DNA of 64,000 nucleotides from Kordiimonas pumila (GTDB taxonomy: Bacteria > Pseudomonadota > Alphaproteobacteria > Sphingomonadales > Kordiimonadaceae). The stretch lies in NCBI RefSeq assembly GCF_015240255.1, contig NZ_CP061205.1:434001-498000 (forward strand), given 5' to 3'. Below the pieces are notes generated by a model that worked only from the letters and a program-made list of their open reading frames with translations, made no database searches and was not told where the DNA came from. Position numbers and translations under genes: made by a program. Positions within the stretch are counted from its first letter, which is position 1, and each line of letters begins with the position of its first letter. This document shows, one piece after another, positions 8,107 to 50,941 of the stretch.

Positions 8107-8193
8107 CAAATTTCTCCTTCCAGCGTAGCCGGGTGAGGCGTCATGGACCCCGTACTTTTACGTCACCTTCCTTGAAAATATCCGCCCCGGTTA

Positions 8194-34816: not shown

Positions 34817-35848
34817 TTAATATGGCCCTTTGAAAAGCGATTCCTGATCAATATGCGCCATATCCGTTGAAGCTTTGCCCAAAAGCTGAAGCGCCGCGTT
34901 CGCAAGCGTAGAGGCCTTTGGGTAAAATGCTTCTTCAAGCTTCATCGAGACAGGGGCAGGGCAATTCGCCAGCGCAATCCGCCGCACCGGTGCCTTTAGG
35001 TGGTGAAAACCTTTTTCTGCAACCAATGCCGCCACTTCACTGGTAAAACCGCATAGTTCCCAACTGGTATCTGCCACAATAAGCCTGCCGGTTTTTTTAA
35101 CAGACGCCAGAATGGTTTTTTCATCCAGCGGCCTAACTGTGCGCGGATCAATAATTTCCACGCTCACCCCGCGCGCCGCCAGTTCCTCTGCCGCGACGAG
35201 CGCCTCTGACACCATAAAAGACGTTGCCACTATTGTAATATCTGACCCTTCACGCACAATATTCGCTTTGCCAAACGGGATCGGTGTCATTGCCTCATCC
35301 ACAGGGCCTTCTGTGTCGTAAAGGGCGCGGTGTTCAAAGATAACCACAGGGTCTTGCCCTGTCAGGGCGGAAAGCAGCAGGCCTTTTGCATCAGCAGGCG
35401 TTGCTGGTAGTGCGACCGTCAGCCCCGGAAAGTGGGCAAGCGGCGCGTGCGGGCTCTGCGAGTGTGTTGCACCCTGACCCCAACCCTTGCCCACAATAGC
35501 CCGAAACACAATCGGCACACGCCCGGCATTACCGCCGTACATATAGCGCCATTTGCACGCTAGATTAAGGAGGTTATCGAACGACAGAAACATAAAATCT
35601 GCCCGCGGGAACACATAAAGCGGGCGCTTGCCCATAGCGGCCGCACCCACCGCGATACCCGCAAAGCCATTTTCCATAGACGGGCAGTCAAACACCCTGT
35701 CGGGGAAGCGCGCTGCCGCCGCTGTTGTCGAGCCAAAAATGCCAGACGGATAATCCACCGCATGACCAGTTACAAAAATACTGTTATCTGCTTCCATGGC
35801 CTGCACCGTGGCTTCAGAGATCGCTTCTTTATATTTTAGTATGCGCAT
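34817..35848 (-). CDS. ThDP-dependent 2-oxoacid dehydrogenase-like E1 beta subunit
   Basis: About 343 residues. MRILKYKEAISEATVQAM at the start, MENGFAGIAVGAAAMGKRPL and ATHSQSPHAPLAHFPGLTVALPATPADAKGLLLSAL are the transketolase-central domain; residues 190-320 are the transketolase C-terminal domain (EIIDPRTVRPLDEKTI). This is the beta half of an acetoin/pyruvate-dehydrogenase-type E1. No E2 or E3 gene is near, and the operon makes sugars, so transfer of an acyl or ketol unit to a sugar is more likely than oxidative decarboxylation. Start at ATG 35848 rather than GTG 35866, by family N-terminus. Last gene of the fifteen-gene operon. Confidence 0.85.
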   Translation of the reverse strand: MRILKYKEAISEATVQAMEADNSIFVTGHAVDYPSGIFGSTTAAAARFPDRVFDCPSMENGFAGIAVGAAAMGKRPLYVFPRADFMFLSFDNLLNLACKWRYMYGGNAGRVPIVFRAIVGKGWGQGATHSQSPHAPLAHFPGLTVALPATPADAKGLLLSALTGQDPVVIFEHRALYDTEGPVDEAMTPIPFGKANIVREGSDITIVATSFMVSEALVAAEELAARGVSVEIIDPRTVRPLDEKTILASVKKTGRLIVADTSWELCGFTSEVAALVAEKGFHHLKAPVRRIALANCPAPVSMKLEEAFYPKASTLANAALQLLGKASTDMAHIDQESLFKGPY

Positions 35849-35868
35849 TGCTCTCTCGCCCATCACTT

Positions 35869-36852
35869 TCAGGAAGCATTATCAAAAAGTTGGCTTGGGT
35901 CTGGCCACGGGTCTGCATAGGCTCGCTCAATATCAGCCTCAATCTCAGCTTTTATGGCAGCTTCCCAGCCTTCCAGTTCAGCCTCTGTTGCCAAGCCTGT
36001 CGCCAAAAGGACTGTTTCACTGCGCCTTACCGGGCATTTCTGCTGCCAGTCTTGCAGTTCAGCCTCATCCCGGTATGTACGGCCCAGATCGTGGTCGAAA
36101 TGGGGGCCAACATGCTCTAGCCACCGGTATGTTGTACATTCCAGAAACACAGGCAACATATGCTCGCGGGCAAAAGCAACGGCTTTAGCTGCCGTTTCGT
36201 AAACAGCGCACACATCATTGCCGTCCACATAAAACGTTTCGATACCGAAACTTTTAACCCGGCCCGTAATGGAAACACCTTCTGGCTGGCGAATAGCAAG
36301 CGGGCTTTCTGTTGCATAACCATTGTTTTCGCAGACATAAAGAACCGGTAATTTCATAAGCGCGGCATAGCCAAGGCATTCATAAAAAGCGCCTTCTTCC
36401 GCCACTGCGTCACCAAAAAAGGCCGTGGATACCCGGTTTGCCTTATCCATTTTAAAACTAAGCGCACTCCCTGTTGCTGCTGCCAGCGCCTCACCGAGGA
36501 TCGCACTTGAAGCCACAAACCCAACGGATAGATCTGTCAGGTGAACAGACCCCCCACGTCCACGGGAACACCCGGTCTCGCGGCCAAAAAGCTCTGCTGC
36601 CAGCCGGTACACGCTGCCACCTTTTGCCAGAAAATGATTATGCGACCGGTGATGGCTGTAAGCTACATCGTCTTTCCTGAGCGCCGCACAAACACCAACA
36701 GCTACGGCTTCCTGCCCCACACCAAAATGGGTCGGGGTACGCATTTCCTGCTGTTTATAACGCTCGGCAAGCGCAAGTTCGGCGTGGCGCACCCTTAAAA
36801 GCTCGCGGTGCATCTGCACTAACAGTTTTGGCGCGATGTTGCTTTCGGTCAT
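35869..36852 (-). CDS. ThDP-dependent 2-oxoacid dehydrogenase-like E1 alpha subunit
   Basis: About 327 residues. HFGVGQEAVAVGVCAAL, YSHHRSHNHFLAKGG, RGRGGSVHL and the ThDP motif AFFGDAVAEEGAFYECLGYAALMKLPVLYVCENNGYA are those of E1 alpha chains (GDG is GDA here). ATG 36852 lies one base after the stop of the glycosyltransferase gene; a GTG at 36861 would overlap. With the beta subunit 20 bases on, it would form an alpha2-beta2 enzyme. Absence of lipoyl-carrier partners sets it apart from true dehydrogenase complexes. Confidence 0.87.
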   Translation of the reverse strand: MTESNIAPKLLVQMHRELLRVRHAELALAERYKQQEMRTPTHFGVGQEAVAVGVCAALRKDDVAYSHHRSHNHFLAKGGSVYRLAAELFGRETGCSRGRGGSVHLTDLSVGFVASSAILGEALAAATGSALSFKMDKANRVSTAFFGDAVAEEGAFYECLGYAALMKLPVLYVCENNGYATESPLAIRQPEGVSITGRVKSFGIETFYVDGNDVCAVYETAAKAVAFAREHMLPVFLECTTYRWLEHVGPHFDHDLGRTYRDEAELQDWQQKCPVRRSETVLLATGLATEAELEGWEAAIKAEIEADIERAYADPWPDPSQLFDNAS

Positions 36853-36853
36853 A

Positions 36854-38629
36854 TCAGGCACTCAACCCAGTTAAAAAATCAGCGAGTTTGTAAATCTGGT
36901 TTTCAATATCAAGGCTTTCAAGCGAAATAGCGTCAATGGCTTTCCAATCCATACCGTCGAGAATATTTTTCAGGTTACCAAGTTCAGACAAAGTTAGCGG
37001 AATGGCCATGCCTGCAGGCAACATATCAACAACACCGCGCATATCGCGGTTACAAACAACAGGCAGGCCAGCGGCCGCACTGGTCCATATAACAGACGGT
37101 AGTGTTGTGGGGGTAAACAGTTCCATCGCATCCCGAGTGAACTGGTCTTCCATATAGGTGGTAGTATCATTGAAAATCTGCATGTTAAACAGACTCCAGC
37201 CCACATGATACTGGCTAAGCTCGTTTGACAGTTCATCAAGATCGTGAATAGGCCGGTATGCCTGAAACTGGTGCCGTTTATCTTCTGGTAACGACAGGCG
37301 GAATTCCTCAAGCTTTGGATGGTCAACATTGCCTGTGTAATAGTGAATATGCATACCGTCGAGAATAAGGTCGCGCAGATACGGCACAACACCCATGCGC
37401 GATGGCTCCCAAAATTCTTCCAGCATCACAGATATAATCGCAATATGGTATGCGTCTGTTCTGCGCGGTTGGCGGTTTTTGGGCATAATTTGATAGCGGT
37501 GGCAGTGTACCCGTGGCAGCTTTTTGCGGACAGCATTTTCAACAAAGTCACCAAATGGCTCGGTATATGAGCTAAAAATGATCGCCTCGGCTTCCTGCAT
37601 CATGGTTTTATATAGGCGGCCACAACTTGGTCCGCGATCATAGTTTTTAACACCCGGCTTAATCGCGTCATACATGTAAAGCGCCAGCTTGCCCTTTGCC
37701 TCACTATCCCGCATTTCCTTAACGGTGCGGATCATGGCAATGGTGGCGGCATAACACAGGGCAACACGGTTAAAATCCCAGTTTGGCGGGTAAATAGCCT
37801 CGTAATGAAAAAACACCGTGCCGTGCTGCAGATTGATAAAGGCCCGCAGATTATCAATAAACCCACCCATCTGATAATCAACAAAAGCAACATCCGTTAC
37901 ACGCGGCGTTGAATACCCCACCTGATGATCTTCTTTCACTTCCTCTGACCCTAGCCAGAAGGGAGAAAAGCCACGCCGCCCCAGCTCGCGAATAGTAGAA
38001 GAAAGTGTGCCCATAGGGCGCGGGCTGGAGAACAGGATCGGTTTTTCCGTTGCATGCACCTTGTCCATAAAGGCAGGCAAACCGTCGGTTACATGCGCCA
38101 ACTTTAGAAGAATATACACTTTCAGGAAATTAATAAAATTACCCTGCCCAAACATATTTTCATACCCGGCGGCGGCCTCGGTATTGCGGGTTAAAATCAG
38201 GCACAGGTCGCCTGTTTCTGGCTTGTAGGCATCAACGGATTGTATGGTTTTACCGGCAACTTTTACACCCGCTCTGAATTTATCGATAAAAACGATATGA
38301 TCAAAATGCCCCGCAAGGTCTGTCATAACCTTGGTAAAGAGCGGCGAACACGGTGCCACAACAAGGCGTCTGCCGCCTTTGGTGCCTGCATGTGGATAAG
38401 GCTTTAGGCATTCCTGCACCTGCCCAAAGGTGATACTGGTGACAAAATCTTCAACATTCACATAATTGGATGCAATTTCCAGCAGCAGGTCCACAACATC
38501 AAAGTTTTCTGCGGTTTTGCCAAGGGCGCCGTATAGGTTTTCTTCCCTGACAAGGGCTTCAAGGTGCTTGCCGTAACAGGCCATGTCTGGCGCAAGAGCG
38601 CGTTCAAGCATGCGTGTATCATCAGCCAT
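36854..38629 (-). CDS. Putative GT-B glycosyltransferase, 591 residues
   Basis: No family is certain. The C-terminal region (about residues 410-590) looks like a GT-B donor domain: SVIWTSAAAGLPVVCNRDMRG, then VDMLPAGMAIPL, as in group-1-like transferases. The middle has many aromatic residues (VFFHYEAIYPPNWDFNRVALCYA) and SCGRLYKTMMQEAEAIIFSSYTEPFGDFVE. The first 100 residues are helical. No signal peptide or membrane helix. Its start overlaps the preceding methyltransferase stop by one base. Sugar transfer fits the setting; donor and acceptor unknown. Confidence 0.6.
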   Translation of the reverse strand: MADDTRMLERALAPDMACYGKHLEALVREENLYGALGKTAENFDVVDLLLEIASNYVNVEDFVTSITFGQVQECLKPYPHAGTKGGRRLVVAPCSPLFTKVMTDLAGHFDHIVFIDKFRAGVKVAGKTIQSVDAYKPETGDLCLILTRNTEAAAGYENMFGQGNFINFLKVYILLKLAHVTDGLPAFMDKVHATEKPILFSSPRPMGTLSSTIRELGRRGFSPFWLGSEEVKEDHQVGYSTPRVTDVAFVDYQMGGFIDNLRAFINLQHGTVFFHYEAIYPPNWDFNRVALCYAATIAMIRTVKEMRDSEAKGKLALYMYDAIKPGVKNYDRGPSCGRLYKTMMQEAEAIIFSSYTEPFGDFVENAVRKKLPRVHCHRYQIMPKNRQPRRTDAYHIAIISVMLEEFWEPSRMGVVPYLRDLILDGMHIHYYTGNVDHPKLEEFRLSLPEDKRHQFQAYRPIHDLDELSNELSQYHVGWSLFNMQIFNDTTTYMEDQFTRDAMELFTPTTLPSVIWTSAAAGLPVVCNRDMRGVVDMLPAGMAIPLTLSELGNLKNILDGMDWKAIDAISLESLDIENQIYKLADFLTGLSA

Positions 38630-39309
38630 TATGCGCGCTTCCCGCAGCCAAGCGCAAAAAGATAGTGAGCCATTTTATGATACCCCGTATGCACAACTTC
38701 ATCATTCATCGAAAACATAAACACGTTCTTAAAATACTTTTCCATCAACACTTTAAAGTCAGGCATTGTCTTGCAATTAACATGCCCTTCCTTGCTAATA
38801 GGCGATGCATAGTCTTGGCTTTCCAGCGACGGCATCCCCAATATGATCACACCGTCCATGTCGAGCGGTGCTATCATATTGCTGATAAACGTGTCTTCAT
38901 CCTGCTTTTCAATATGCTCCAGCACATCAAGGGCATACATGCAGTCATATGCACCCGGTGCTGGGTCTGCCAGCATATCATGCACAAAGCAGTCAAACCG
39001 CCATTTATCGCTCATACGGTCTTTCACATCCTTGATAAAAACAGGGTCAAAATCCGTTGCCGTTACTTTTTCTACTTCTTGCGCCACAATACGGGTGCCA
39101 AAAGCATCAGCACAGCCAACCTCAAGCGCATGCTTGCGGCCTGAAAACATTTTGGAAACAAATTTATAGCGCGCAAGCGTGAACGTGAGGCGGCGCGGGT
39201 CATCATACCATGCCTGACTTGTCATCAGGCCCATTTGCTCAAGCCCGCGCGCGCGGGCATAGTCAAGCGCAATATTATATTGGGATTCTTTGGTTTTTTC
39301 GTCTGTCAT
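38629..39309 (-). CDS. Class I SAM-dependent methyltransferase
   Basis: 226 residues. Motif I HALEVGCADAFGTRIVAQEV, motif II VTATDFDPVFIKDV, and CMYALDVLEHIEKQDEDTFI (post-II) are typical of small-molecule methyltransferases (UbiG/Methyltransf_11-like). Coupled by one-base overlap to the 591-residue glycosyltransferase gene downstream. Probably methylates a sugar or lipid-linked intermediate; C- and O-methylation cannot be told apart by eye. Confidence 0.82.
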   Translation of the reverse strand: MTDEKTKESQYNIALDYARARGLEQMGLMTSQAWYDDPRRLTFTLARYKFVSKMFSGRKHALEVGCADAFGTRIVAQEVEKVTATDFDPVFIKDVKDRMSDKWRFDCFVHDMLADPAPGAYDCMYALDVLEHIEKQDEDTFISNMIAPLDMDGVIILGMPSLESQDYASPISKEGHVNCKTMPDFKVLMEKYFKNVFMFSMNDEVVHTGYHKMAHYLFALGCGKRA

Positions 39310-39347
39310 TTTAACCCCTGAGCCGTGCTTTAAACCAGCCTAACAGC

Positions 39348-40022
39348 TTATTCTGTTTCGTCAAATTCCAATATGGTCCAGAAATAATCCCCTGTATAGC
39401 GCGCCTCGGCAAAAAGTGTGTACCACTCGTCTGGTGTGCAGTATGTTTGAGCGGTTAGCATCCATGCTTCAAAAAGCGTGAGTTCTGCTTCATTGCGGTA
39501 CGCATCCACCTGCACAAAACACGCGCCCGGGTTTTTGCACACCCGCACCATTTCTTGTAACGCTGCAACGCACCCGGCGCGGTCCAGATTGTGGATGGTA
39601 TTAATCGAGAAAACCGCATCAAAACTGTGATCTGCAAAGGGCAGTTTATCTGCCGAACCCTGTTGCACATGTGCCTGCACACTGTGCAACGCATGCTCCA
39701 GCGCGTAGGCGGAAATATCTATGCCCACAGCCTCCAACCCCGGCACCATTTCCATCAGGTCGTGGACAAAAAAGCCTTTTGCACATCCGATATCCAGCAC
39801 CTTCATTCCTGCTTTAAGGCCGTACCGGTCGCGCGCGGTTGCAGCTACTGCTTTCCAGCGGCCATCATAGGTGTAACCACCGTACCCCTGTTCACGCGGA
39901 CCATCAAAATAGGCTTGACCAAATTTAAGTGCCTCTGCCCGGTTCACATCCTTGTTCACCAAGCGCGCCGCCACGCTGCGCCTGATACTGGGGACAGACT
40001 TTAAGAGGTTAAATTCCGGCAT
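39348..40022 (-). CDS. Class I SAM-dependent methyltransferase (second)
   Basis: 224 residues. GMKVLDIGCAKGFFVHDLMEM is motif I; LEAVGIDISAYALEHA, GSADKLPFADHSFDAVFSINTIHNL and LQEMVRVCKNPGACFVQVDAY complete a Methyltransf_11 domain at residues 70-190. Three bases after the epimerase stop. Different from its neighbour at 38629, so two separate methyl groups may be added. Confidence 0.83.
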   Translation of the reverse strand: MPEFNLLKSVPSIRRSVAARLVNKDVNRAEALKFGQAYFDGPREQGYGGYTYDGRWKAVAATARDRYGLKAGMKVLDIGCAKGFFVHDLMEMVPGLEAVGIDISAYALEHALHSVQAHVQQGSADKLPFADHSFDAVFSINTIHNLDRAGCVAALQEMVRVCKNPGACFVQVDAYRNEAELTLFEAWMLTAQTYCTPDEWYTLFAEARYTGDYFWTILEFDETE

Positions 40023-40025
40023 GTT

Positions 40026-40901
40026 TTATTCAACATCCTTCTGAGCAAGCGCGAGGCCCTGATCAAGCGGTGTGAAGGCAAAAGCCGGGAAAGCCTTCCG
40101 GCATGCCGTTATATCAAACTTGCGGTGTGTGATGGCACTGCCGCGCGGTGAACCCTTTACGGGTACATCTGTATCAAAAAGCGCTGCCACCATGCGGGCA
40201 AGGGTGCCAAAGTCTGTTGAAACACCGGTTGCAACATTTAACAGCCCTGTACTTTTATGCCCCAGCACCAACCGCACCAAAGCGGCAACATCCGCCACAT
40301 AAATATGATCGCGGGTTTCTTCGCCCTCGCCGCCAATGGTGATTTTGCCGTCTGCCGCCGCCACCCGGCGAAACCTGTTAGGGCCGTAAGAACTGTGCGT
40401 GTCGCCCGCGCCGTAAATAAGGGTTGGCCGCAGGATACAAAGCCTGTCGGCCACCGCAGATTTCAACATAATTTCCCGCGCCAAATGCATAGCGCCGTAT
40501 AAATCACCCGGTGCGGCAGCGCTCTCTTCTGAAACCGGGTTCTCCGTCATCGGATAAACCGCATCTGAACTGAAATAGACAATATGGGCCGGCATGGTTT
40601 TTTGAACGGCGCTGCAAACACCCTCCACCATACGCAGGTTTTTCATAAAGGTATCAATACCTTTGCCCTTGTCTGGTGTAAGCGCAGAAAGAACAACAAG
40701 ACTGTCGCCTTCTTTTAACTCTGTTGCAAGCTTAACGGCGCCTGCCTCTGTGCTGAGGTCTATATCCGCTGATGAAAAAGACGCGACGTCAATGGCTTCT
40801 TCTTTCAGCAGTGCAGAAACAGCCTTGCCAACAAAGCCACTACCCCCCAGCAGAACAACACGGTCAGGTTTTTTATAGTCAGCATTCATGTGGGTAAGCA
40901 T
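40026..40901 (-). CDS. NAD-dependent epimerase/dehydratase (extended SDR)
   Basis: 291 residues. Cofactor motif VVLLGGSGFVGKAVSALL (about residues 14-31), YFSSDAVYP, and LRPTLIYGAGDTHSSYGP. The active-site signature normally YxxxK reads YGAMH here, so His replaces Lys; the Lys usually tunes the catalytic Tyr. Either a variant of the family or a protein that binds but does not oxidise its sugar. AGGATAAAAG precedes ATG 40901. Follows the nucleotide-sugar dehydrogenase homologue by three bases. Confidence 0.8.
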   Translation of the reverse strand: MLTHMNADYKKPDRVVLLGGSGFVGKAVSALLKEEAIDVASFSSADIDLSTEAGAVKLATELKEGDSLVVLSALTPDKGKGIDTFMKNLRMVEGVCSAVQKTMPAHIVYFSSDAVYPMTENPVSEESAAAPGDLYGAMHLAREIMLKSAVADRLCILRPTLIYGAGDTHSSYGPNRFRRVAAADGKITIGGEGEETRDHIYVADVAALVRLVLGHKSTGLLNVATGVSTDFGTLARMVAALFDTDVPVKGSPRGSAITHRKFDITACRKAFPAFAFTPLDQGLALAQKDVE

Positions 40902-40904
40902 CTT

Positions 40905-42197
40905 TTATCCTATCGTTTGAGGTGTTTTCCGTCCAAGGGTAAAGTGTTGCAGCGCATTTTTTGTGCAGTCGTTTGTACACAGCACGCCGTAAGGGTCGAC
41001 AATGATTGAACCCGCCATAGCTGCCTTGATAGCCGCCGGCGCGACAGCCCGGAACACATCCCACGGTGTCATAATAATAAGAATATCAGCGCCTTTTATG
41101 GCAGATAAGGCATCTGGTTGCGGCGCAAGCTGCATCGTAGGCACGGCACTATTGGCAACAACAGGGTCATACGCCGCAAGATCAAACCCGCCAAGATGCG
41201 CGAGCAGCGCCAGCGACGGCGAGTTTTTAACCGAATGGGTATCCTGCTTGTAGGCAAGGCCCCAGATGGCAATTTTAGGGTTTGGCACAAGGGGAAAAAG
41301 CTGATCATGCAGTAGGCGCAGCACCCAGTCGCGCCGGTACTGGCTGTTTTTTTGCCATGCTTTTACAACACCCGCATCCGTGCCGTGCTGGCCCGCGAAC
41401 CGCACAACCGTGTTAAGGTCGCGCTCCAGGTTACCCCCTGCAATACCAAGGCCCGGTGATAGGTAGGCATATTGGCCAATGCGCCTGTCAAGCCTGAGGG
41501 CAGGCACAATTTCTGACCAGTCTGCCCCAATATTTTCGCAGAGTTCCGCCAGAGTGTTTGCCGTGCTGATGGAGGAAACAAGGCAGCAATTAATGGCAAT
41601 TTTAGCCAGTTCCGCGCTTTCATAGCGCATAGGCAACAAGGGGCAATCGAACATATCCAGAAATGCCCTGTAAGCCTTGTGCAAGGGAGCGGACGGGTCT
41701 TTACAGCCAATGATAATACGTTCAGGGTTTAAGGCCCGGTCAATAGCTTGCCCAAATATAAGCGTCTCAACCTGATAATAATAAGGCCTCCCCTCTTGCA
41801 GGATAAGGGCACGGCTAAACCCCGGCGGTAACTGGCTTAGGATAATAAAAGGCATAGCCGCAGGCAAAGCAGCATCAAGCAACTGCACAAGGTTTTGCAG
41901 TGCCGTTAAGTCACTGTTTGCAGCATCATCTGTTGGAATGTCAGGCGCAATTATTACAAGGTCGCAGCCTTCCAGGGCTTCTCGATTGGCGGTATAGCGA
42001 AGGCGGTCCATGTGCTTTGCCATCAGCGCCGTAAGGTCTGGTTCCTCAATGGCTGTGGTGCCGGCCTTTAAGCCGGTGATAACGGCTTCGTCTCTGTCGA
42101 AACAGGTAACCTGCATACCCCGTGCTGCCGCCGCAACTGCAGAGTTTAGCCCCAAGTGGGTCATGCCCGCATAGGCTATGGTCGGCGCACCATTCAC
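40905..42197 (-). CDS. UDP-glucose/GDP-mannose dehydrogenase-family protein lacking the catalytic Cys
   Basis: About 430 residues. All three family domains are visible: N-terminal NAD domain (IAYAGMTHLGLNSAVAA), central dimer helix (YESAELAKIAINCCLVSSISTANTLAELCENIGAD) and C-terminal substrate domain (IAIWGLAYKQDTHSVKNSPSLALLAHL). The catalytic loop GxGFGGSCFxKD reads GLGIAGGNLERD near residue 255: the Cys is Gly and the Lys is Arg. A four-electron oxidation to a uronic acid is therefore unlikely; a one-step alcohol oxidation or epimerisation is possible. GTG 42197 overlaps the previous stop (GTGA); the frame extends to 42251. Confidence 0.85.
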   Translation of the reverse strand: MNGAPTIAYAGMTHLGLNSAVAAAARGMQVTCFDRDEAVITGLKAGTTAIEEPDLTALMAKHMDRLRYTANREALEGCDLVIIAPDIPTDDAANSDLTALQNLVQLLDAALPAAMPFIILSQLPPGFSRALILQEGRPYYYQVETLIFGQAIDRALNPERIIIGCKDPSAPLHKAYRAFLDMFDCPLLPMRYESAELAKIAINCCLVSSISTANTLAELCENIGADWSEIVPALRLDRRIGQYAYLSPGLGIAGGNLERDLNTVVRFAGQHGTDAGVVKAWQKNSQYRRDWVLRLLHDQLFPLVPNPKIAIWGLAYKQDTHSVKNSPSLALLAHLGGFDLAAYDPVVANSAVPTMQLAPQPDALSAIKGADILIIMTPWDVFRAVAPAAIKAAMAGSIIVDPYGVLCTNDCTKNALQHFTLGRKTPQTIG

Positions 42198-43117: not shown

Positions 43118-43149
43118 CAGACGTTCTCCCCTTAACCTGCACCCACAGG

Positions 43150-44709
43150 CTAACTGTTTGAATAATTTATTGCGTTCTCGATACGCGCCAGCCGCTCCAG
43201 TATCGCGCCCGGCTTAACGGTTTCATTGCCGTCATATTCGCATTCAAGCCCTGCCGCAATATTACCCAGCACAGAAGCAAGCGCTTCATTACCGCCAGTT
43301 GCCACCATGGCAAGGGAAGCATAGGCAAGCAAGGCATCCCCCGCGCCCACCGCATCAAGCACCGTATCTGCAAAGCTATCAACAGAGATAATCGTGCGCG
43401 GGTCACCCTCTGGTCGGGTTCTGTATGTCAGAATACCGCGTGCCCCAAGTTTCAGGATAAGGGTTTTGCACTCTGCTTTTTTAAACAGCTCGGTTGCCAG
43501 TGGTCGCATGACCGAATCCTGATCCCCAAGGGCAAAGCGCGCCTCACGCTCGTTTGGTGTTATCAGGTCAAAGCCTTTAAATTCTGTAATATTACCCCAG
43601 CGGCTCGCGACCTGACTGTCAGCCACGCGGTAAGCCCCATCCGGTATCGCGCTCACCAGATCGCCGATCGTATGCTTGTTAAAAATACCATGGCGAAAAT
43701 CACTAAAAACAACAATCGCGGCGTTTTCACTGGCAATTTGCTTCTGTAGTTTTTTCACAATCTTATCTGAAATTGACCGGTTATCGAGTGTATCAACCTT
43801 TAAAAGCCGGTAGTCGCTGGCAACAAAAGCATTTTTGTTGGTCGTTGGTCGGGTCGGGTCGATAATAGGCTGGCAGTTAACCCCGCTTTTCTCTAAATCA
43901 TCGAGCACAAAAGCCGCTAGATTGTCGTCCCCAAGTACCGTGGAAAAAGTGACATCAGCGCCCGCCGCACAAAGGTGTTTTGCAACAATGCCAGCGCCGC
44001 CAACATAATCAACCTTTTCCTCAAACCTGACACTCATGGTCGGGGTTTTGGTCATGCCGCCAATCATGGAACAACGGGTAAAGCTGTCGACAATAGTATC
44101 GCCCACGATATGCACCTTCATGCCAGCAAACTGGCCAAGTGCCGCGCGCATGTCGCCAAAGTCAAAGTTTTCTTCCTGCATCAGCACCATTAATTTCTCT
44201 GTGCTAATGTTAGGCGGCGCTGATTCTATAAACCGTGAAGATGAATAAACGATATCGCCGGGGGTAAAGATCATTTCACCGCCAAAAGGCTCGAGGGCCG
44301 CCATTTCTTCCTGCGTTTTGGGCGGAATATTGCCTGCCACATATTCATAGCCTTTGGCAAAATAGTCAGGCTCTAGAAACTTAATGGTTTCAATCGGCGT
44401 CGGGTTATCATCAATAATGACATAATCAACCATTTCAAAAGCGGCCAGATTTATGGCGCGCAGATGTTCTGGCACATAAGGGCGCATATCAGCCTTGGTC
44501 ACATGCTGGTCACATGTCAGGCTGGCGATCAATATATCTGCCTTGCTTTTTGCATAGAGCAAATGCCGCACATGGCCGGGATGCACCACATCAAACGTAC
44601 CATGACAGATAATAACCTTCTTGCTGCGCGGCCTTGCACCAATAAGATCACGCAGTTGCTGTCTGGTTTTAATTTTTGGAGAGACCAGTTTACGGCTGCC
44701 ATCATCCAT
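43150..44709 (-). CDS. HldE-like bifunctional enzyme with reversed domain order (nucleotidyltransferase-PfkB kinase)
   Basis: About 519 residues. Residues 25-170 are a cytidylyltransferase-like domain with HGTFDVVHPGH (HxGH near residues 43-46) and a YEYVAGN loop. Residues 190-519 are a PfkB/ribokinase domain: VHIVGDTIVDSF, DYVGGAGIVAKHL, LITPNEREARFAL, and DAVGAGDALLAYA near 465 with the catalytic Asp. E. coli HldE has the kinase first. In heptose synthesis these steps phosphorylate C1 of heptose 7-phosphate and then add a nucleotide after GmhB action. AGGAG seven bases before ATG 44709 sets the start; overlaps the epimerase stop by eight bases. Confidence 0.85.
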   Translation of the reverse strand: MDDGSRKLVSPKIKTRQQLRDLIGARPRSKKVIICHGTFDVVHPGHVRHLLYAKSKADILIASLTCDQHVTKADMRPYVPEHLRAINLAAFEMVDYVIIDDNPTPIETIKFLEPDYFAKGYEYVAGNIPPKTQEEMAALEPFGGEMIFTPGDIVYSSSRFIESAPPNISTEKLMVLMQEENFDFGDMRAALGQFAGMKVHIVGDTIVDSFTRCSMIGGMTKTPTMSVRFEEKVDYVGGAGIVAKHLCAAGADVTFSTVLGDDNLAAFVLDDLEKSGVNCQPIIDPTRPTTNKNAFVASDYRLLKVDTLDNRSISDKIVKKLQKQIASENAAIVVFSDFRHGIFNKHTIGDLVSAIPDGAYRVADSQVASRWGNITEFKGFDLITPNEREARFALGDQDSVMRPLATELFKKAECKTLILKLGARGILTYRTRPEGDPRTIISVDSFADTVLDAVGAGDALLAYASLAMVATGGNEALASVLGNIAAGLECEYDGNETVKPGAILERLARIENAINYSNS

Positions 44710-45706
44710 TTTGCTTCTCCTGCATGAAGCGGAACCATGTTTTGGTTGCGTCCGCAATGCTGTCTACATCCCACAAAGGGGCTTCACGCCAATAGTCGAT
44801 ATTATCCAGAATTTTGCTAACACCTTGTTCAAAAGAAACCTCGGGTTTCCAGCCTAATTCTGTTTTAATTTTTGTAATGTCTGCCCATGTGCAGTCAGGT
44901 TCGCCCGGGCGCTTTGGCAGGGCAACCGTTTCGCCGCCCAAAAGCGATGCCAGATAATTCACCGTTTGCGGGTTACCGGCCCCGAGGTTATAAATTTCGC
45001 CGACACGGTCTGTATCCGCCGCCGCATAAAAGGCCTTTGCCACATCCGTTACATAGAGAAAGTCGCGCGATTGGGTACCATCCCCCACAATTGTTAGCGG
45101 CTTACCCGCCAGCTTCTGCTTCAGGAACACGCCAAACACAGCACCGTAAGCCCCCGATGTGCGCGAGCGCGTACCGTAAGCATTAAATATGCGAACAGAA
45201 TTAACCGGGAGCCCGTAAACACTATGCCAGTGCAGCACAGCCTGCTCGCCCTGATATTTCGAAAGGGCATAGGGGTATTTGGTATCAATCACATGGCTTT
45301 CATCTGTTGGTACAGCCGCAAGGCCGTAGCAGGAGGAAGAAGCAGCATAAACCAGCTTTTCAACGCCTGCGGCGCGGGCACATTCAAGCACCTGCACCGT
45401 GCCCTGCGCATTGACAGACATATAATCAAGCGGACGCTCAATAGACGGTACAATGTCGCCGATACCAGCAAAATGAAAAACAAATTTTGCCCCGTCAAAA
45501 ATTGCATTGCCGGGTTCAAGCGCGCGAATATCTTCCTTAAAGAAACGCACATCGCTGTTTGCACTGTGGCGCGCAATGTTTGCCTCGCGCCCCCCGACCA
45601 GGCTATCAACCACATGCACTGCAAAGCCCTTGTCAACCAGCACATCCACCATATGGCTGCCAATAAAACCACACCCTCCGGTTACGATGGCCAGCGGCTT
45701 GCCCAT
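44702..45706 (-). CDS. NAD-dependent epimerase/dehydratase (GalE-like)
   Basis: 334 residues, extended SDR. VTGGCGFIGSHMVDVL binds NAD; FHFAGIGDIVPSI, YAASSSCYG and YPYALSKYQGEQ (YxxxK intact) form the active site; NSVRIFNAYGTRSRTSGAYGAV is the substrate region. Acts on a nucleotide sugar, most likely as 4-epimerase or related dehydratase. One-base overlap with the upstream epimerase gene and eight-base overlap with the HldE-like gene show a tightly coupled operon. Confidence 0.88.
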   Translation of the reverse strand: MGKPLAIVTGGCGFIGSHMVDVLVDKGFAVHVVDSLVGGREANIARHSANSDVRFFKEDIRALEPGNAIFDGAKFVFHFAGIGDIVPSIERPLDYMSVNAQGTVQVLECARAAGVEKLVYAASSSCYGLAAVPTDESHVIDTKYPYALSKYQGEQAVLHWHSVYGLPVNSVRIFNAYGTRSRTSGAYGAVFGVFLKQKLAGKPLTIVGDGTQSRDFLYVTDVAKAFYAAADTDRVGEIYNLGAGNPQTVNYLASLLGGETVALPKRPGEPDCTWADITKIKTELGWKPEVSFEQGVSKILDNIDYWREAPLWDVDSIADATKTWFRFMQEKQNG

Positions 45707-46719
45707 TAACGCGCCCCAATGCGCTGCATGGTGCGCACATTAAAATATTTATCATCCTCAAAGCTGTTGGGCAATTTTCCTTCACGGAAAGCAACACACA
45801 GGCTGCGCACGGCATCATCCACCGAATATTTAGGCGCAAAGCCAAGTACCTTTTTGATCTTGTCAGAATTAATGTGGTACGAGCGAATATCGTCTGTTGG
45901 CTGGGTTTCAATCTCGATTTCGCCGAGCTCGGGGAATTCCTGCTGCACAACACGCTTCACTGAATGGGCAATTTCCATCATGCTCATATTTTCATAACCG
46001 CAATTGAAGGTTTCATCGGCGATGATGCTGTCGTCTGCTACCAAAAATGCCTTACACAGGTCGACATAATCCTGAATATGCAGGTTTGGTCGCAACTGCG
46101 ACCCACCAAACACCAGAATTTTACGGTTATTAATAGCGTGGTTTGTGAGAATGTTTACGGACACATCCAACCTTTGACGCGGGCCGTAGCCACAAACTGT
46201 TGCAGGCCGGAAAATAACCCCGACAAAAGTATCGTCGGTGTATTTTTTCAGGACCGGTTCGCACATGCCCTTGTATTTATTATAGAGTGTCAGCGGCACC
46301 AGCGGGTGATCTTCTTTTACATCCGGTTCGTCAGACACACCGTAAACAGAGCTTGAAGAAGCATAGATAAAGCGTTTTACGCCCGCATTTTTCGCGGCAG
46401 CAACCATAGGCTCAAATGCGTTTAAGTTAACGGACGTGGAAAGGTCTTCATCCAGCACAAAACTGGCATCATTTGAGATGCAGGCAAGGCTGATAACCGC
46501 GTCCACACCAGCCATGGCGGCGGCAAGCGAGGCCGTATCCCGGATATCCCCTTTTATGACTTTCAGGTTTTCATGGCCCTTTGGCAGGTGCGTGTCACCG
46601 TAATACATAATATCGTAGACAATAACCTTGTGCCCCATTTCCAGCAGTTGGGGAACAAGCACACTGCCACAATATCCTGCGCCGCCTGTGATGAGGACAG
46701 TTTCAAACTTCAATGCCAT
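45706..46719 (-). CDS. NAD-dependent epimerase/dehydratase (extended SDR)
   Basis: About 337 residues. VLITGGAGYCGSVLVPQLLEMGHKVIVYD, SLACISNDASFVLDED, YASSSSVYGVSDEPDV and LYNKYKGMCEP (YxxxK intact), then RPATVCGYGPRQRLDVSVN. The SNDASFVLDED segment resembles SDRs found beside heptose or C-methyl sugar enzymes, but specificity is not readable. The frame begins at 46773; MALKFETVLIT at 46719 is the usual N-terminus. Forty-six bases separate it from the transaldolase gene. Confidence 0.85.
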   Translation of the reverse strand: MALKFETVLITGGAGYCGSVLVPQLLEMGHKVIVYDIMYYGDTHLPKGHENLKVIKGDIRDTASLAAAMAGVDAVISLACISNDASFVLDEDLSTSVNLNAFEPMVAAAKNAGVKRFIYASSSSVYGVSDEPDVKEDHPLVPLTLYNKYKGMCEPVLKKYTDDTFVGVIFRPATVCGYGPRQRLDVSVNILTNHAINNRKILVFGGSQLRPNLHIQDYVDLCKAFLVADDSIIADETFNCGYENMSMMEIAHSVKRVVQQEFPELGEIEIETQPTDDIRSYHINSDKIKKVLGFAPKYSVDDAVRSLCVAFREGKLPNSFEDDKYFNVRTMQRIGAR

Positions 46720-46765
46720 AAATCGCTCGCTTTTAGTAACGTGATAAAAAATGCCGGAAGCCTGC

Positions 46766-47512
46766 TTACGCAACTTCGCAGTCTTTGGGTGCCTTCACCC
46801 TGATCTGATAGGTCGCTGCACTGGCGTCATTATAGAACATGGCAACGGTTTCAAGGGAATATTCCACCAGATCCTTGCCGTATAAATCCAGCTTCTTCAA
46901 CAGGCTGTGCGTGACGGTGATAATACCACAGCCAACAGCATCTGCCTGATAAATATTCAGCACTTCGCGGGGGCTTGCCCACAAGAGATCTGCCTTAGGG
47001 AGGGCCGCCAAAACAGTGGCCGCTTCCTGCATATAGGGCACCGGATCAAGCCCCGTATCTGCAATACGGCCCGCAAAAACGGAAACGATCGCCGGTGTTG
47101 TCGGCGAAAGCACCGCTGCCACAGCACGCACCTGATCAACCGTCATAAGAGCGGTCACATTCACCTGCACACCGTCTGCTGTCAGGCGCTTTAAAATAGG
47201 GCCGGTAAATTCGCCTTTTGTGGTGGTAACCGGAATTTTTACATTCACATTCTGGCCCCACGATGCAATCTCGCGTGCCTGTGCCTCCATACTGGGCAAA
47301 TCATCTGCAAAAACTTCGAACGAAACCGGCTTGTCTGTTGCAACGGCTAAAACCTTATGAGCAAAAGCTTCATAATCGCTGACACCGGCCTGCCGCATAA
47401 GGGTTGGGTTTGTGGTAAACCCCTCAATACGCGGGTTTTTATTCAGCATGCAGATATCATCAAAATCCGCGCCATCGGCAAAAATTTTCACCTTCAGATT
47501 ACATACTGTCAT
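46766..47512 (-). CDS. Transaldolase-family protein (fructose-6-phosphate-aldolase-like)
   Basis: About 248 residues, short transaldolase type. KVKIFADGADFDDI has the conserved Asp, GFTTNPTLMRQAG the strand-2 motif, and NVNVKIPVTTTKG the Schiff-base Lys; VTALMTVDQVRAVA and SVFAGRIADTG follow as in transaldolases. It makes or splits C-C bonds between ketose and aldose phosphates. Inside a heptose operon it could supply sedoheptulose 7-phosphate or a longer sugar. Start at ATG 47512 (GGGA just upstream) rather than 47557. Confidence 0.86.
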   Translation of the reverse strand: MTVCNLKVKIFADGADFDDICMLNKNPRIEGFTTNPTLMRQAGVSDYEAFAHKVLAVATDKPVSFEVFADDLPSMEAQAREIASWGQNVNVKIPVTTTKGEFTGPILKRLTADGVQVNVTALMTVDQVRAVAAVLSPTTPAIVSVFAGRIADTGLDPVPYMQEAATVLAALPKADLLWASPREVLNIYQADAVGCGIITVTHSLLKKLDLYGKDLVEYSLETVAMFYNDASAATYQIRVKAPKDCEVA

Positions 47513-47665
47513 TTTTTCCCGGTCCTCTTTATGGCCAAAATCTTTGTATTTCAGCAAGTTACAGGCCGCATTCCCCGATTAGGGCATAGTCCCTAATATC
47601 CGCAGCATGCCTTTTTGTTACTGCTAAAGCAATAATGTGGCCAACTTAAAATATCAACACGAGCG

Positions 47666-48205
47666 CTACTTTATGCCAGCCTCGTTGTTACATATAAAAT
47701 CACTTGCCTGTTTCAAACTGCCCGTTGCCAGAACATAACCCTCTGCCGCTTTTTCAGCATAGCCATACTCAATAAAAATAGCCTGACACCCAGCCCTTAC
47801 GCCAGCTTCAATATCACGCCACCTGTCGCCCACCAGATAACTGCTGGCAAGGTCAATATCATGCCGTTTCGCCGCCTCCAGTATCATACCTGGCGCAGGC
47901 TTGCGGCAGGCGCAGATGTCAGCGTCCACATGGTAGCACACAAAAATATCATCAATGGGTACAAGCGCTGTAAGCTTGGCATGCATTTTTTCCACCACTG
48001 CCCGCGTTTGCTTGCCGGTTGCTACATCGGGCTGGTTTGTCACCACAATCAACTTAAAGCCTGCACTTTTTAACGCGCTGCATGCCTCAGCCACCCCCTC
48101 TAGCAGCTCAAATTCATGCAGGGTTGCCGGCGGGTACGATTTACCGCCGCGCACAAAAGCACGGTTTAACACACCGTCCCTGTCAAGAAACACCGCCCGA
48201 TTCAT
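47666..48205 (-). CDS. gmhB: D,D-heptose 1,7-bisphosphate phosphatase
   Basis: 179 residues, HAD superfamily. FLDRDGVLN carries the nucleophile Asp pair, VVTNQPDVATG is motif II, the zinc loop CYHVDADICACRKPAPGM matches GmhB (CxHxxxxxCxC), and YLVGDRWRDIEAG is motif III/IV. It removes the C7 phosphate of heptose 1,7-bisphosphate between the two HldE reactions. The DxD loop and zinc site are complete, so it should be active. 153 bases precede the transaldolase gene downstream; no terminator seen there. Confidence 0.9.
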   Translation of the reverse strand: MNRAVFLDRDGVLNRAFVRGGKSYPPATLHEFELLEGVAEACSALKSAGFKLIVVTNQPDVATGKQTRAVVEKMHAKLTALVPIDDIFVCYHVDADICACRKPAPGMILEAAKRHDIDLASSYLVGDRWRDIEAGVRAGCQAIFIEYGYAEKAAEGYVLATGSLKQASDFICNNEAGIK

Positions 48206-48244
48206 AACAGCCCCCTGTTTCGAACAAGTACCGGTTGGGTGTGG

Positions 48245-48829
48245 TTACCACTTTGTTGCCATTGTTTGCAAAACCGGGTTTGACACCAGACAGTGCCACA
48301 CAACCGCCTGAAACCCTTCTGCGTGCGGTGTAACCCTATCGGCATGTACCGTTGGTATAATCACAACATGATCGCCCACAGATGCCGTATAGCCGCCATC
48401 CCGGCTAACGATACCGAAAATTTTAGCGCCCACATCCTGTGCCACTTCAAGCGCCTTAATAATATTGGTGCTGACATTTTTTTCAGCATTGCCACCACCA
48501 ACGGACAGGACAAAAACCGCATCTTTGTTCGATAGTCTACTGGTTTTAAGCCAGCCTGAAAAAACCGTATCCCAGCCCTCGTCGTTTGTGCGGGCCGTCA
48601 GTTCTGACACATTATCTGTGGGGGCATAGGTTTCAATGCCGCACAGTTTCCTGAAATCATTCACCGCATGGGCGCAGTTTGCAGCACTGCCGCCCACCCC
48701 CAAAAAGAAAAGCCGCCCACCGTTTGTGCGCACCTGTGCCAGTTCGGTAGCCATTTGGTCTATTTTGGTAACGTCAATATCTTCACAGATTTTGGCAGCT
48801 TCCGTGAAAAATGTTTTTGCGTGCGACAT
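48245..48829 (-). CDS. Phosphoheptose isomerase-like SIS protein (GmhA-like)
   Basis: About 194 residues, single SIS domain: LFFLGVGGSAANCAHAVNDF, APTDNVSELTARTNDEGW, VFVLSVGGGNAEKNVSTNIIKAL. GmhA converts sedoheptulose 7-phosphate to D-glycero-heptose 7-phosphate. Here residues that bind zinc in E. coli GmhA seem altered (Asp for Glu in the AHAVND helix; the C-terminal TPHAEGFQAVVWH lacks the usual Gln-Glu pair), so it may act on another sugar. Start MSHAKTFF at 48829, not 48868. Followed by gmhB after 39 bases. Confidence 0.8.
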   Translation of the reverse strand: MSHAKTFFTEAAKICEDIDVTKIDQMATELAQVRTNGGRLFFLGVGGSAANCAHAVNDFRKLCGIETYAPTDNVSELTARTNDEGWDTVFSGWLKTSRLSNKDAVFVLSVGGGNAEKNVSTNIIKALEVAQDVGAKIFGIVSRDGGYTASVGDHVVIIPTVHADRVTPHAEGFQAVVWHCLVSNPVLQTMATKW

Positions 48830-48910
48830 GAGAGGCTCTTTTTTGATGTCAGAAGGATCTGGTGACAATGGCTGAAATACAGAAAGTATTCAACGAAAGA
48901 TTACACTTAC

Positions 48911-50065
48911 TTATCCCATAAGCATGGCCTTGAGCGCGGCAAGGTTTTGGGTGTTTTCTGTCTGCATATAATGCTTTAGCGCCCTAACACCGGCTTTAGC
49001 CTCTAGCAGGTTCAAACCCTTGATGGTTTCCAGAAACACAGCCATATTACCCGCCGGAACCACAGCCCCCGCCCCAAAACGGCTTATAAGGTCAGCCGCA
49101 AATGCAAACGCATCATCAATAATAACCGGTAAGCCTGCATCCACATATGTCATCATGCGGTTAGGCAATCCAAAGCGGGTTACATCCATAACGGTGTCAT
49201 CCCGGTAGTGTGCACAGCACAGCCCTAAATCATATCCCGCCGCCTTATCGCTAATATACTGCCGGGGACTGGCGCGGTGATAGTGAACATTTTGCTGCGC
49301 CCCATATCTCTCTATCAAAGCGGCAAACTTTACCGAGACATCTTCATGCGGCAGGCTGTGCGCGGCATTATAAATATCAAGGGACAGGCTTTTATCTGCG
49401 GCGATGGCATCAAAATACCGGACCAGATTAGCGCCGTCTGTTTTGCCGCTATCAGGGTTTAGTTCCCGGGCACTTGCTGAGCCCGCATAAAGCAGTTTGC
49501 GCACGCCCGTTTTGTCTGCCCTCTGTCCATTCGCTTTTTCCCCACCCTCAAGTGCGGGGAAAACAGAGATGATCGGCGCCTTGCAGCCCGCCGCCCAGTC
49601 TTGAAAAGCCTTGCCGCCCATCTTTACGATAAGGCCGTCTGCACCCTCTAGCGCTGCCCGACAGCTGGCCGTAGCCACTTTTGCAGCGTCATTCCCGTAT
49701 ATATACCCAACAGCATCACGGGTAAAAAGCAGGCTTAGATCGTAAAACTCAACAAATAGCTTTGCCGCAGATACCTGCTGCCGCAAACAACTATACAAAT
49801 ATTCCGAGCGGGTATGGGGCGCGACCCTTAGATATAGAATATCAGGGTTAAAAGCCTTGAGCGCCGCGTATAAAGCCTGCTCCCCGTCCATAACGGCAAC
49901 AGTTTGGTCTATCCCTAGATCAGACACTTCAAACGCCCGGCCTGAAGGCGAAAAATAGAATTCTTTTACCACTGCGTTAGCACACGTCGCCATCAAAACA
50001 GGTGTATCGATAACCGCCCAAGGCCGATTGGCCGTGTTAATAACTGCAATTTTTTTGTTTTTCAT
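48911..50065 (-). CDS. Putative GT-B glycosyltransferase
   Basis: About 384 residues beginning MKNKKIAVINTANRPWAVID. The C-terminal half has RKLLYAGSASAREL and TRFGLPNRMMTYVDAGLPVIID, then AADLISRFGAGAVVP, as in group-1-like GT-B enzymes. No membrane segment. The open frame continues to 50527, but the extra 154 residues lack family character and run opposite the cytidylyltransferase gene, so 50065 is chosen; the ribosome site is weak. First gene of the fifteen-gene minus-strand operon, 81 bases before the gmhA-like gene. Acceptor unknown. Confidence 0.68.
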   Translation of the reverse strand: MKNKKIAVINTANRPWAVIDTPVLMATCANAVVKEFYFSPSGRAFEVSDLGIDQTVAVMDGEQALYAALKAFNPDILYLRVAPHTRSEYLYSCLRQQVSAAKLFVEFYDLSLLFTRDAVGYIYGNDAAKVATASCRAALEGADGLIVKMGGKAFQDWAAGCKAPIISVFPALEGGEKANGQRADKTGVRKLLYAGSASARELNPDSGKTDGANLVRYFDAIAADKSLSLDIYNAAHSLPHEDVSVKFAALIERYGAQQNVHYHRASPRQYISDKAAGYDLGLCCAHYRDDTVMDVTRFGLPNRMMTYVDAGLPVIIDDAFAFAADLISRFGAGAVVPAGNMAVFLETIKGLNLLEAKAGVRALKHYMQTENTQNLAALKAMLMG

Positions 50066-50131
50066 AAACCAGTTATCGCCCCAAACAACACAGCACACCA
50101 CACCTGAACCATTGACATAAAACATGATTTC

Positions 50132-50143
50132 GCCAACATTGGC
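50132..50143. promoter_or_regulatory. Short palindrome in the divergent glycan promoter gap
   Basis: GCCAA-CA-TTGGC lies midway between the divergent glycosyltransferase (50065) and cytidylyltransferase (50180) genes. A TTGACA at 50112-50117 on the plus strand is followed only by a weak -10. No sigma-54 site was found in this gap. A shared operator is possible but unproven. Confidence 0.3.
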
Positions 50144-50179
50144 AAAATATTGGTCCTTCACAGCAGGATAAGCATATAT

Positions 50180-50941
50180 ATGAGCGAGAAAATAGTCTGT
50201 ATTGTGCAAGCCAGACGACGTTCCTCGCGCCTGCCCGATAAAATTTTGAAACCGCTCGGCGACAAACCCGCTCTTGCTCATGTCCTGAAGCGCTGTTTGG
50301 CCATACCCTCTGTTCACTCTGTTGTGTGTGCGGGCATTGATGACCCTTTTGAAGCGCCGGTTTATGAAATTGCACAGCAGGCGGGTGCAAAAATATTTAA
50401 GGGCAGCGAAAATGACGTGCTGTCGCGCTATTACGGGGCCGCAAAAATAGAGGAAGCTCAATGGGTTATGCGAGTCACCTCTGATTGCCCGCTTTTTGAC
50501 CCGGATGTTGCCGAAAACCTTATTCAAGGCACGCTCGCATCAGGCTGCACCTTTGGCGCAAATGCCGATTGGCCACACGGGCTTGACTGTGAACTATTCA
50601 GTTTTGACCTATTAGAGCAAGCTTATAAAAATGCCACCCTTGATGGTGAACGCGAGCATGTAACGCTGTGGATGAAGCGCCAGACCGGGTTAAAAATGTT
50701 CCACCATTTTGCGCCAAAAGGCCGCCCGCTTGGCCACCAATATAGGTGGGTTCTTGATTATCCTGAAGATTATCAATTTCTGGTAGAAATATATAACCGC
50801 TTGGGAAAAGGCGCAGCAAAAGCTCGTTGGCAGGATATTATCACTCTTCTAGACAAAGAGCCCGCCCTGCAGACTATCAATGAAAAATGCACAGCCATTT
50901 GGGCTACAGAGAACCAAAAAATTCATCAAGACCTAAAATAA
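50180..50941 (+). CDS. SpsF/KdsB-like cytidylyltransferase
   Basis: About 253 residues. VCIVQARRRSSRLPDKILKPLGDKPALAHVLKRC is the nucleotide-binding start of CMP-sugar / SpsF-type transferases; GSENDVLSRYYGAA, VMRVTSDCPLFDPDV and ANADWPHGLDCELFSFDLLEQA follow the family. It likely activates an acidic or other special sugar with CTP. ATG 50180 (MSEKIV) is preferred to 50150. Divergent from the sugar operon and followed by an intrinsic terminator. Acts in the cytosol, probably on the product of the neighbouring operon. Confidence 0.85.
   Translation: MSEKIVCIVQARRRSSRLPDKILKPLGDKPALAHVLKRCLAIPSVHSVVCAGIDDPFEAPVYEIAQQAGAKIFKGSENDVLSRYYGAAKIEEAQWVMRVTSDCPLFDPDVAENLIQGTLASGCTFGANADWPHGLDCELFSFDLLEQAYKNATLDGEREHVTLWMKRQTGLKMFHHFAPKGRPLGHQYRWVLDYPEDYQFLVEIYNRLGKGAAKARWQDIITLLDKEPALQTINEKCTAIWATENQKIHQDLK

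Follow-up and report, generated by a model that had tools for sequence, protein, structure and literature searches.

A fifteen-gene operon of Kordiimonas pumila as a candidate pathway to a nucleotide-activated octose

The operon and its genes

We analysed a stretch of 64,000 nucleotides (the window; positions 434001-498000 of contig NZ_CP061205.1) within the 4.04-Mb single-contig genome of Kordiimonas pumila, and in it a sugar operon that may direct the synthesis of a nucleotide-activated octose for a cell-surface glycan. The operon is a minus-strand run of 15 genes leading from 50065 down to 34817 (window positions), in which neighbours overlap or are separated by at most 153 bp, and a single transcript is plausible from this arrangement. 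The genes are listed in the order of the run.

48911..50065, minus: glycosyltransferase-like protein, first gene; chosen ATG at 50065, 384 amino acids (aa); putative glycosyltransferase
48245..48829, minus: SIS-domain phosphosugar isomerase, LmbN-like; PF13580; gmhA family 54 bits against a cut-off of 209
47666..48205, minus: GmhB-type HAD phosphatase, LmbK-like; above the general HAD-IIIA and histidinol-phosphatase-domain cut-offs, under the GmhB cut-offs
46766..47512, minus: dedicated transaldolase (TAL), LmbR-like; TIGR02134, 347 bits against a cut-off of 281.95; ATG at 47512
45706..46719, minus: SDR1, NAD-dependent epimerase type; family match, Tyr, Lys and Ser motifs retained
44702..45706, minus: SDR2, NAD-dependent epimerase type; best match in the window of the lmb-like SDRs
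43150..44709, minus: swapped HldE, nucleotidyltransferase followed by PfkB kinase; HPGH and GxGD retained; 151 bits against a cut-off of 521
42194..43117, minus: Gfo/Idh oxidoreductase, LmbZ-like; EKP motif; 25-28% identity to lmb-like Gfo
40905..42251, minus: Ugd-family protein without the catalytic Cys, LmbL-like; family match and alignment
40026..40901, minus: SDR3; His replaces the catalytic Lys
39348..40022, minus: S-adenosylmethionine (SAM) methyltransferase MTa; kept with the cassette
38629..39309, minus: SAM methyltransferase MTb; present in 3 of the 51 loci described below
36854..38629, minus: 591-aa protein without family match; probable glycosyltransferase
35869..36861, minus: E1 alpha, thiamine diphosphate (ThDP)-dependent; PF00676, under the pyruvate dehydrogenase (PDH) equivalog cut-offs; putative AviB1-like role
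34817..35866, minus: E1 beta; PF02779 and PF02780, under the PDH cut-offs; putative AviB2-like role

The inventory given by the original prediction, which had been made from the letters of the window (transaldolase, SIS isomerase, GmhB, swapped HldE, E1 pair, three epimerase-type SDRs, a dehydrogenase homologue, a Gfo/Idh oxidoreductase and two methyltransferases), was borne out, each gene being an intact open reading frame (ORF) with a family match at these coordinates. Its assignment of all genes to one operon held for the 15 close-packed genes, but not for a cytidylyltransferase, which is encoded divergently on the plus strand (ATG at about 50180, to 50941) as a separate transcription unit outside the operon. 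The minus-strand ORF of the first gene extends from 48911 to 50527; this longer form gave no Pfam or NCBIfam match, and the true start is probably at 50065. The Ugd-like gene probably starts downstream of the listed position as well, near 42200.

Spread of the cassette and its partner genes

Genome contigs were scanned with four HldE sequences and the best 80 of 547 loci were taken. The cassette set comprised the 51 loci whose HldE reached an identity of 45% or more (L008-L054, L074, L085 and the viral L088 and L089), giving a count of at least 49 genome loci; L001, L002, L006, L004 and L005, duplicates of the window, L008, L088 and L089, were excluded before counting. According to their titles, the 51 loci belong to Alpha-, Beta-, Gamma- and Deltaproteobacteria, Chlamydiae, Verrucomicrobia, Elusimicrobia, Nitrospirae, Bacillota, Rokubacteria, an Acidimicrobiaceae and a Thermoplasmata archaeon, most being metagenome-assembled genomes of which individual taxon titles may be wrong. 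Among 59 genomes (the own genome and those of its genus, family and order), three matched HldE at 1e-20, namely the own genome, G003 from its own genus (82%) and G022 (31%). Plasmid records yielded 42 HldE matches in 72,556, all below 60% identity and two covering 80%.

Across the loci the order SIS-GmhB-TAL-SDR1-SDR2-HldE-Gfo-Ugd-SDR3-MTa prevailed and was largely constant. The gene set had been recommended for a search in other genomes, and its order indeed recurs in many loci of different phyla, indicating that the grouping is more than chance. In the 29 loci flanked by 5 kb or more on either side, we observed Ugd in 28, SDR2 and Gfo in 27 each, SDR1 in 25, TAL in 24, SIS and GmhB in 23 each, SDR3 in 22, MTa in 21, E1 alpha and E1 beta in 10 each and MTb in 3. 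The remaining 31 loci returned by the scan (HldE 29-36%) were without the cassette, with a lone SDR1-like gene in three and a Ugd-like gene in one; they served as controls. A DegT-like ORF was found near 16 of the 51 cassette loci compared to 3 of the 31 controls.

Genes for ThDP enzymes were frequent partners of the cassette. Near the 51 loci we found E1 genes (the pair or a single subunit) in 13 cases, a split transketolase in 13, both in none and an acetolactate-synthase-like enzyme in four. When only the 26 loci with flanks of 9 kb or more on each side were considered, E1 occurred in 9, split transketolase in 12, both in none and another type in 2, so that 23 had any ThDP enzyme and 3 had none; this count is threshold-dependent (22/26 by clustering, 23/26 by direct BLAST), and the transketolase sets of the two methods differ by L029 and L054. 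No ThDP enzyme was found in the 31 controls, nor in the 14 of them with full flanks. The non-overlap of E1 and transketolase corresponded to a hypergeometric value of 0.0006, a figure that overstates independence since the loci are related. E1 and transketolase belong, as distant relatives, to one superfamily, and the way they replace each other suggests that one shared two-carbon (C2) transfer step lies behind both kinds of cluster.

Like the PDH-like pairs AviB1/AviB2 (avilamycin) and Pau11/Pau12 (paulomycin), the E1 alpha and beta genes stand in a sugar cluster, and no match to E2 or E3 was detected among the operon's 15 genes. The role proposed for those pairs is the transfer of a two-carbon branch from pyruvate onto a ketosugar (PMC4425429, PMC4753412), and avilamycin also requires AviO2 (PMC4425429). 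The operon differs by its presumed octose background, and the likeness drawn here is one of genes. A further ThDP enzyme, with three domains (TPP_enzyme N, M and C), is encoded outside the operon at window positions 6370-8109.

A second type of cluster, devoid of TAL, was represented by L135-L145, from one gammaproteobacterial order, and by L007, with a swapped HldE of 27-36% identity. In 11 such stretches we found SDR1 (at least 42%), MTa and SIS in six each, SDR2 (at least 45%) in four and a split transketolase in five, while TAL, GmhB, Ugd and Gfo were found in none. The presence of the split transketolase suggests that the ThDP partner is tied to the SDR1/SDR2/MTa part rather than to the octose part alone, and the TAL-less clusters may represent a seven-carbon form with the same late steps. 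Among 36 genomes of the order of G059, cassette-type HldE was present only in G059 itself; 11 others had only a 27-36% HldE at 1e-30.

These clusters bear on Coxiella burnetii, for which a phosphoheptose isomerase, two epimerases and a reversed HldE are annotated in the phase I lipopolysaccharide (LPS) region CBU0674-CBU0678, all of which have counterparts in the operon; the reversed HldE, CBU0678, is described as being of unknown function and required for full LPS (PMC5843353). CBU0678 and several neighbours have been called alphaproteobacterial imports, the nearest relatives of CBU0678 lying in Alphaproteobacteria (PMC5423948). The idea that the Coxiella virenose cluster is the same system as the cassette was weakened, as the HldE proteins of the searched order were mostly of the 27-36% kind, with no TAL, GmhB, Ugd or Gfo nearby. 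From these loci we infer that CBU0674-0678 is more likely a TAL-less cousin than a cassette.

Comparison with heptose and octose pathways

The ADP-heptose pathway (GmhA, HldE, GmhB, HldD) shares its isomerase, kinase, phosphatase and nucleotidyltransferase families with the operon. However, only TAL exceeded an equivalog cut-off among the operon proteins (families shown), whereas HldE, GmhA and GmhB (131 against 178 bits) stayed well under those of the heptose families, and the domain order of HldE was reversed with respect to the kinase-first heptose enzyme. No second HldE was found in the complete genome at E 0.001, the operon HldE being the sole match, and none of 13 SDR matches in the genome was above the HldD cut-off. 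The TIGR02134 transaldolase is additional to a second transaldolase-family gene (PF00923) elsewhere in the genome. Cut-offs, HldE order, absent HldD and the extra transaldolase thus rule out ordinary ADP-heptose synthesis, in agreement with the earlier view that the operon holds more than this pathway. A kinase-first HldE is also present in three of six other cassette-bearing genomes.

Judged by gene content, the best functional match appears to be the lincosamide octose pathway of lincomycin and celesticetin (LmbR, N, K, M, L, Z). The lmb table lists LmbK as phosphatase, LmbL as dehydrogenase, LmbM as epimerase, LmbN as isomerase, LmbZ as oxidoreductase, LmbP as kinase, LmbO as guanylyltransferase, LmbS as aminotransferase and LmbR as transaldolase, with an octose as product; LmbM, LmbL, CcbZ and CcbS are reviewed as converting the GDP-octose to the GDP-lincosamide sugar (PMC4351081, PMC12945683). 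With this pathway (LmbR-N-P-K-O-M-L-Z-S) the operon has in common a dedicated transaldolase (LmbR), a SIS isomerase (LmbN), a GmhB-type phosphatase (LmbK), a Ugd-family protein of LmbL type without the catalytic Cys and, by family homology at 25-30% identity, probable SDR and Gfo/Idh counterparts of LmbM and LmbZ. It differs by its extra SDRs, methyltransferases and E1 pair and by a presumed glycan context. The claim that no known pathway would readily match therefore needs to be narrowed: there is a partial match to the antibiotic octose pathway, but the kinase and nucleotidyltransferase are of other families.

TIGR02134 matched 5 of 392 presumed Streptomyces genomes at 1e-12, and in all five the gene lay beside GmhB, Ugd, SDR, SIS, Gfo and a GHMP kinase, arranged as the lmb table lists them. 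In the two of these lmb-like loci that were checked further (L161 and L164), a MobA-like nucleotidyltransferase (NTP_transf_3) and a DegT aminotransferase were located between kinase and TAL; L161 also gave a weak match to the TldD family, which is listed in the lmb table. A profile search for LmbL matched 300 of the 392 genomes, and the ten top loci opened encoded ordinary Ugd with the Cys, which we used as controls for the active-site comparison. Among Actinomycetota, locus L133 (8384-11324) encodes GHMP kinase, SIS, GmhB and TAL consecutively, with nitrogenase-like genes adjacent as judged by eye, and is a possible third octose-type module. Two further Actinomycetota genomes (L131:9282 and L132:9500) had a TIGR02134 transaldolase over the cut-off and, within the 20 kb covered, none of the other cassette genes.

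In ordinary Ugd, the catalytic Cys is part of a GGSC(F/L)PKD motif. The dehydrogenase homologue of the original prediction did prove to be a member of this family, but one that has lost the Cys. At this position, the cassette proteins showed Asn in 39 and His in 4 of 43 readable rows (one gap) and the lmb-like proteins Thr (5/5), compared to Cys in the ordinary enzymes (10/10). The Lys of PKD was Arg in 43/43 cassette and 5/5 lmb-like proteins but Lys in 10/10 ordinary Ugd; likewise, the Tyr of the nucleotide-binding loop GxGY(V/I)G was His in 44/44 and 5/5, respectively, as opposed to Tyr in 10/10. These shared changes make it unlikely that the cassette protein would form uronic acids and indicate a resemblance to LmbL. 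In the relatives printed, other motifs were largely retained, namely VKIP of TAL (VKIP or VKLP around its Lys), DxDG of GmhB, HPGH and GxGD of HldE, EKP of Gfo and Tyr and Lys of SDR1 and SDR2. The replacement of the catalytic Lys of SDR3 by His was seen in most relatives as well as in the window, and SDR3 is possibly a non-catalytic or altered SDR.

Proposed pathway, alternatives and reach

We propose, at a probability of roughly 0.55, that the product of the operon is a nucleotide-activated octose, destined for a cell-surface glycan and assembled by the logic of the lincosamide pathway. The proposal builds on the observed gene content, the recurrent synteny, the Ugd active-site changes common with lmb-like proteins and the frequent ThDP partner genes. 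The predicted reactions, and with them chain length, nucleotide, branch position and surface destination, would be as follows. The dedicated transaldolase would transfer a three-carbon unit to a pentose phosphate to give octulose-8-phosphate, which the SIS enzyme would isomerise to the aldose. The kinase half of HldE would then form the 1,8-bisphosphate, the GmhB-type enzyme remove the 8-phosphate, and the nucleotidyltransferase half yield the nucleoside diphosphate (NDP)-octose, with ADP as the probable nucleotide. Epimerisation and dehydration by SDR, Cys-less Ugd and Gfo, in the manner of LmbM, LmbL and LmbZ, would lead to a 6-keto-8-deoxy-octose; the steps of LmbM, LmbL, CcbZ and CcbS are reportedly 6-epimerisation, 6,8-dehydration, 4-epimerisation and transamination. 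SDR3 and the methyltransferases would finish the sugar and the glycosyltransferases attach it. The product is probably an NDP-octose that is 8-deoxy and branched. We regard the NDP-octose core as rather probable, while a branch made by the ThDP enzyme falls just short of even odds. The assumption of a modified, longer or branched sugar, and of transaldolase and E1 pair as enzymes that build or branch its chain, is supported.

A number of observations weigh against this assignment. Identities between window and lmb-like proteins are low (TAL 26-31%, SIS 26-28%, SDR2 and Ugd 26-30% each, Gfo 25-28%; GmhB 39-46%), and the lmb-like TAL and SIS are nearer to locus L133 than to the window. HldE, SDR3 and MTa found no counterpart in the lmb-like clusters. 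Conversely, the GHMP kinase and MobA-like guanylyltransferase of the lincosamide pathway (LmbP, LmbO) are replaced in the cassette by a fused PfkB kinase and HldE-type nucleotidyltransferase, and a DegT aminotransferase of LmbS type was not found among the 15 operon genes. TAL was absent nearby in 5 of the 29 loci that have 5 kb or more on either flank. The window Ugd exceeds the general nucleotide-sugar-dehydrogenase subfamily cut-off (213 against 189.8 bits), and the Ugd tree, unrooted and with three groups, is at most compatible with one origin with LmbL. An Asp at the position of the GmhA Glu, seen in the SIS of 33/33 readable cassette rows and 5/5 lmb-like proteins, was considered as an octose mark and rejected as not specific, since most SIS of TAL-less clusters share it. 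The ThDP partner fared no better as such a mark: absent from the 31 controls, it nevertheless appears as split transketolase in the TAL-less cousins, where SDR1, SDR2 and MTa likewise occur without the octose-type genes.

This last finding weighs slightly against the octose reading and slightly favours a modified heptose, in which TAL would supply sedoheptulose-7-phosphate and the resulting NDP-heptose would be epimerised, methylated and perhaps branched. SIS, GmhB and HldE belong to heptose families, the TAL-less relatives retain SDR1, SDR2, SIS, MTa and swapped HldE, frequently together with a split transketolase, and TIGR02134 was built for bacteria without other transaldolases. The genome, however, already has another transaldolase, TAL co-occurs with an LmbL-type Ugd and Gfo as in the lmb-like clusters, and heptose pathways are not known to include a dedicated transaldolase. 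We consider a modified heptose unlikely, although not negligible, and the heptose backbone of the original prediction less supported than an octose, to which TAL with SIS, GmhB, SDR, Gfo and Cys-less Ugd would fit. Alternatively, ThDP enzymes and transaldolase could lengthen the chain before activation, for example to a nonulose or decose phosphate, so that the sugar would be longer and not branched. The replacement of the E1 pair by split transketolase in many loci speaks for such a linear extension, as transketolase acts on phosphorylated aldoses, but an E1 pair would use 2-oxo acids to give 1-deoxyketoses, presumably poor SIS substrates, and the described sugar-cluster E1 pairs have been proposed to act late, on keto-sugars (PMC4425429, PMC4753412). 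This makes a linear extension improbable. Finally, the sum of eight and two carbons recalls bradyrhizose, a bicyclic sugar of ten carbons (PMC9912281), and some Bradyrhizobium have the cassette with a transketolase subunit gene. A C4-branched sugar is described from the O-antigen of a Rhodopseudomonas palustris strain (PMC9912281). Photosynthetic strains are the reported source of bradyrhizose, and six of them share a conserved 11-gene cluster (PMC4743980), whereas cassette HldE was rare in Bradyrhizobium genomes with photosynthetic reaction-centre genes (2/27 versus 8/238 others). As the product of the cassette it is thus not supported and very improbable.

Copies of the cassette were also found among phage structural genes. 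In L089 it sits between a head-tail adaptor gene and the genes for a protease and the major head protein, and comprises TAL, SDR2, HldE, a short Ugd, an O-methyltransferase, E1 beta and alpha, MTa, SIS and a DegT aminotransferase; the stretch examined, in which no SDR1, GmhB, Gfo or SDR3 was detected, also encodes an uncharacterised 477-aa protein. The cassette of L088 adjoins terminase and portal genes and contains TAL, SDR1, SDR2, HldE, a short Ugd, an E1 pair and a partial MTa. A third phage contig, L179, encodes an E1 beta (81%) next to head genes that resemble those of L089 by homology. Among annotated phages, 8 of 50,697 records matched HldE, all below 60% identity and none covering 80%.

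In the window itself, genes on the plus strand past E1 beta encode FkbM-type methyltransferases, a TPR radical-SAM protein and a TPR protein. The second of these (30419-32122), between FkbM methyltransferase and TPR genes past the 3' end of the operon, has a TPR domain fused to a radical SAM domain.

The kind of pathway is known from the antibiotic lincomycin. Judged by titles and abstract openings, which are no proof of absence, we found no description in the literature searched of a surface octose pathway or of this gene set, nor of octose use outside antibiotics, a fused reversed HldE therein, ThDP partners or phage copies. Since the gene set recurs in many unrelated bacteria and in two phage contigs, a pathway described for an antibiotic may be widespread in surface sugars. 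We tentatively extend this, as something less likely than not, to a pathway that would be mobile, reach across several bacterial phyla as well as phages and one archaeal genome bin, and make branched ten-carbon surface sugars, that is, an 8-deoxy-octose with a two-carbon branch. E1 clusters would add an acetyl-derived and split-transketolase clusters a glycoloyl-derived branch, phages would carry a compact form that alters host or virion glycans, and octoses would be a general surface strategy, with the lincosamide pathway arising either out of it or alongside it. If this is true, transaldolase-made higher-carbon sugars would be common surface sugars, perhaps missed or called heptose in composition analysis, and the conserved gene set would allow producers to be found. 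It would also assign a role to Cys-less Ugd-family proteins that score as nucleotide-sugar dehydrogenases, supply synthesis with a wide choice of naturally occurring variants of the lincosamide octose enzymes and prompt one to ask why phages put such a pathway among their head genes.

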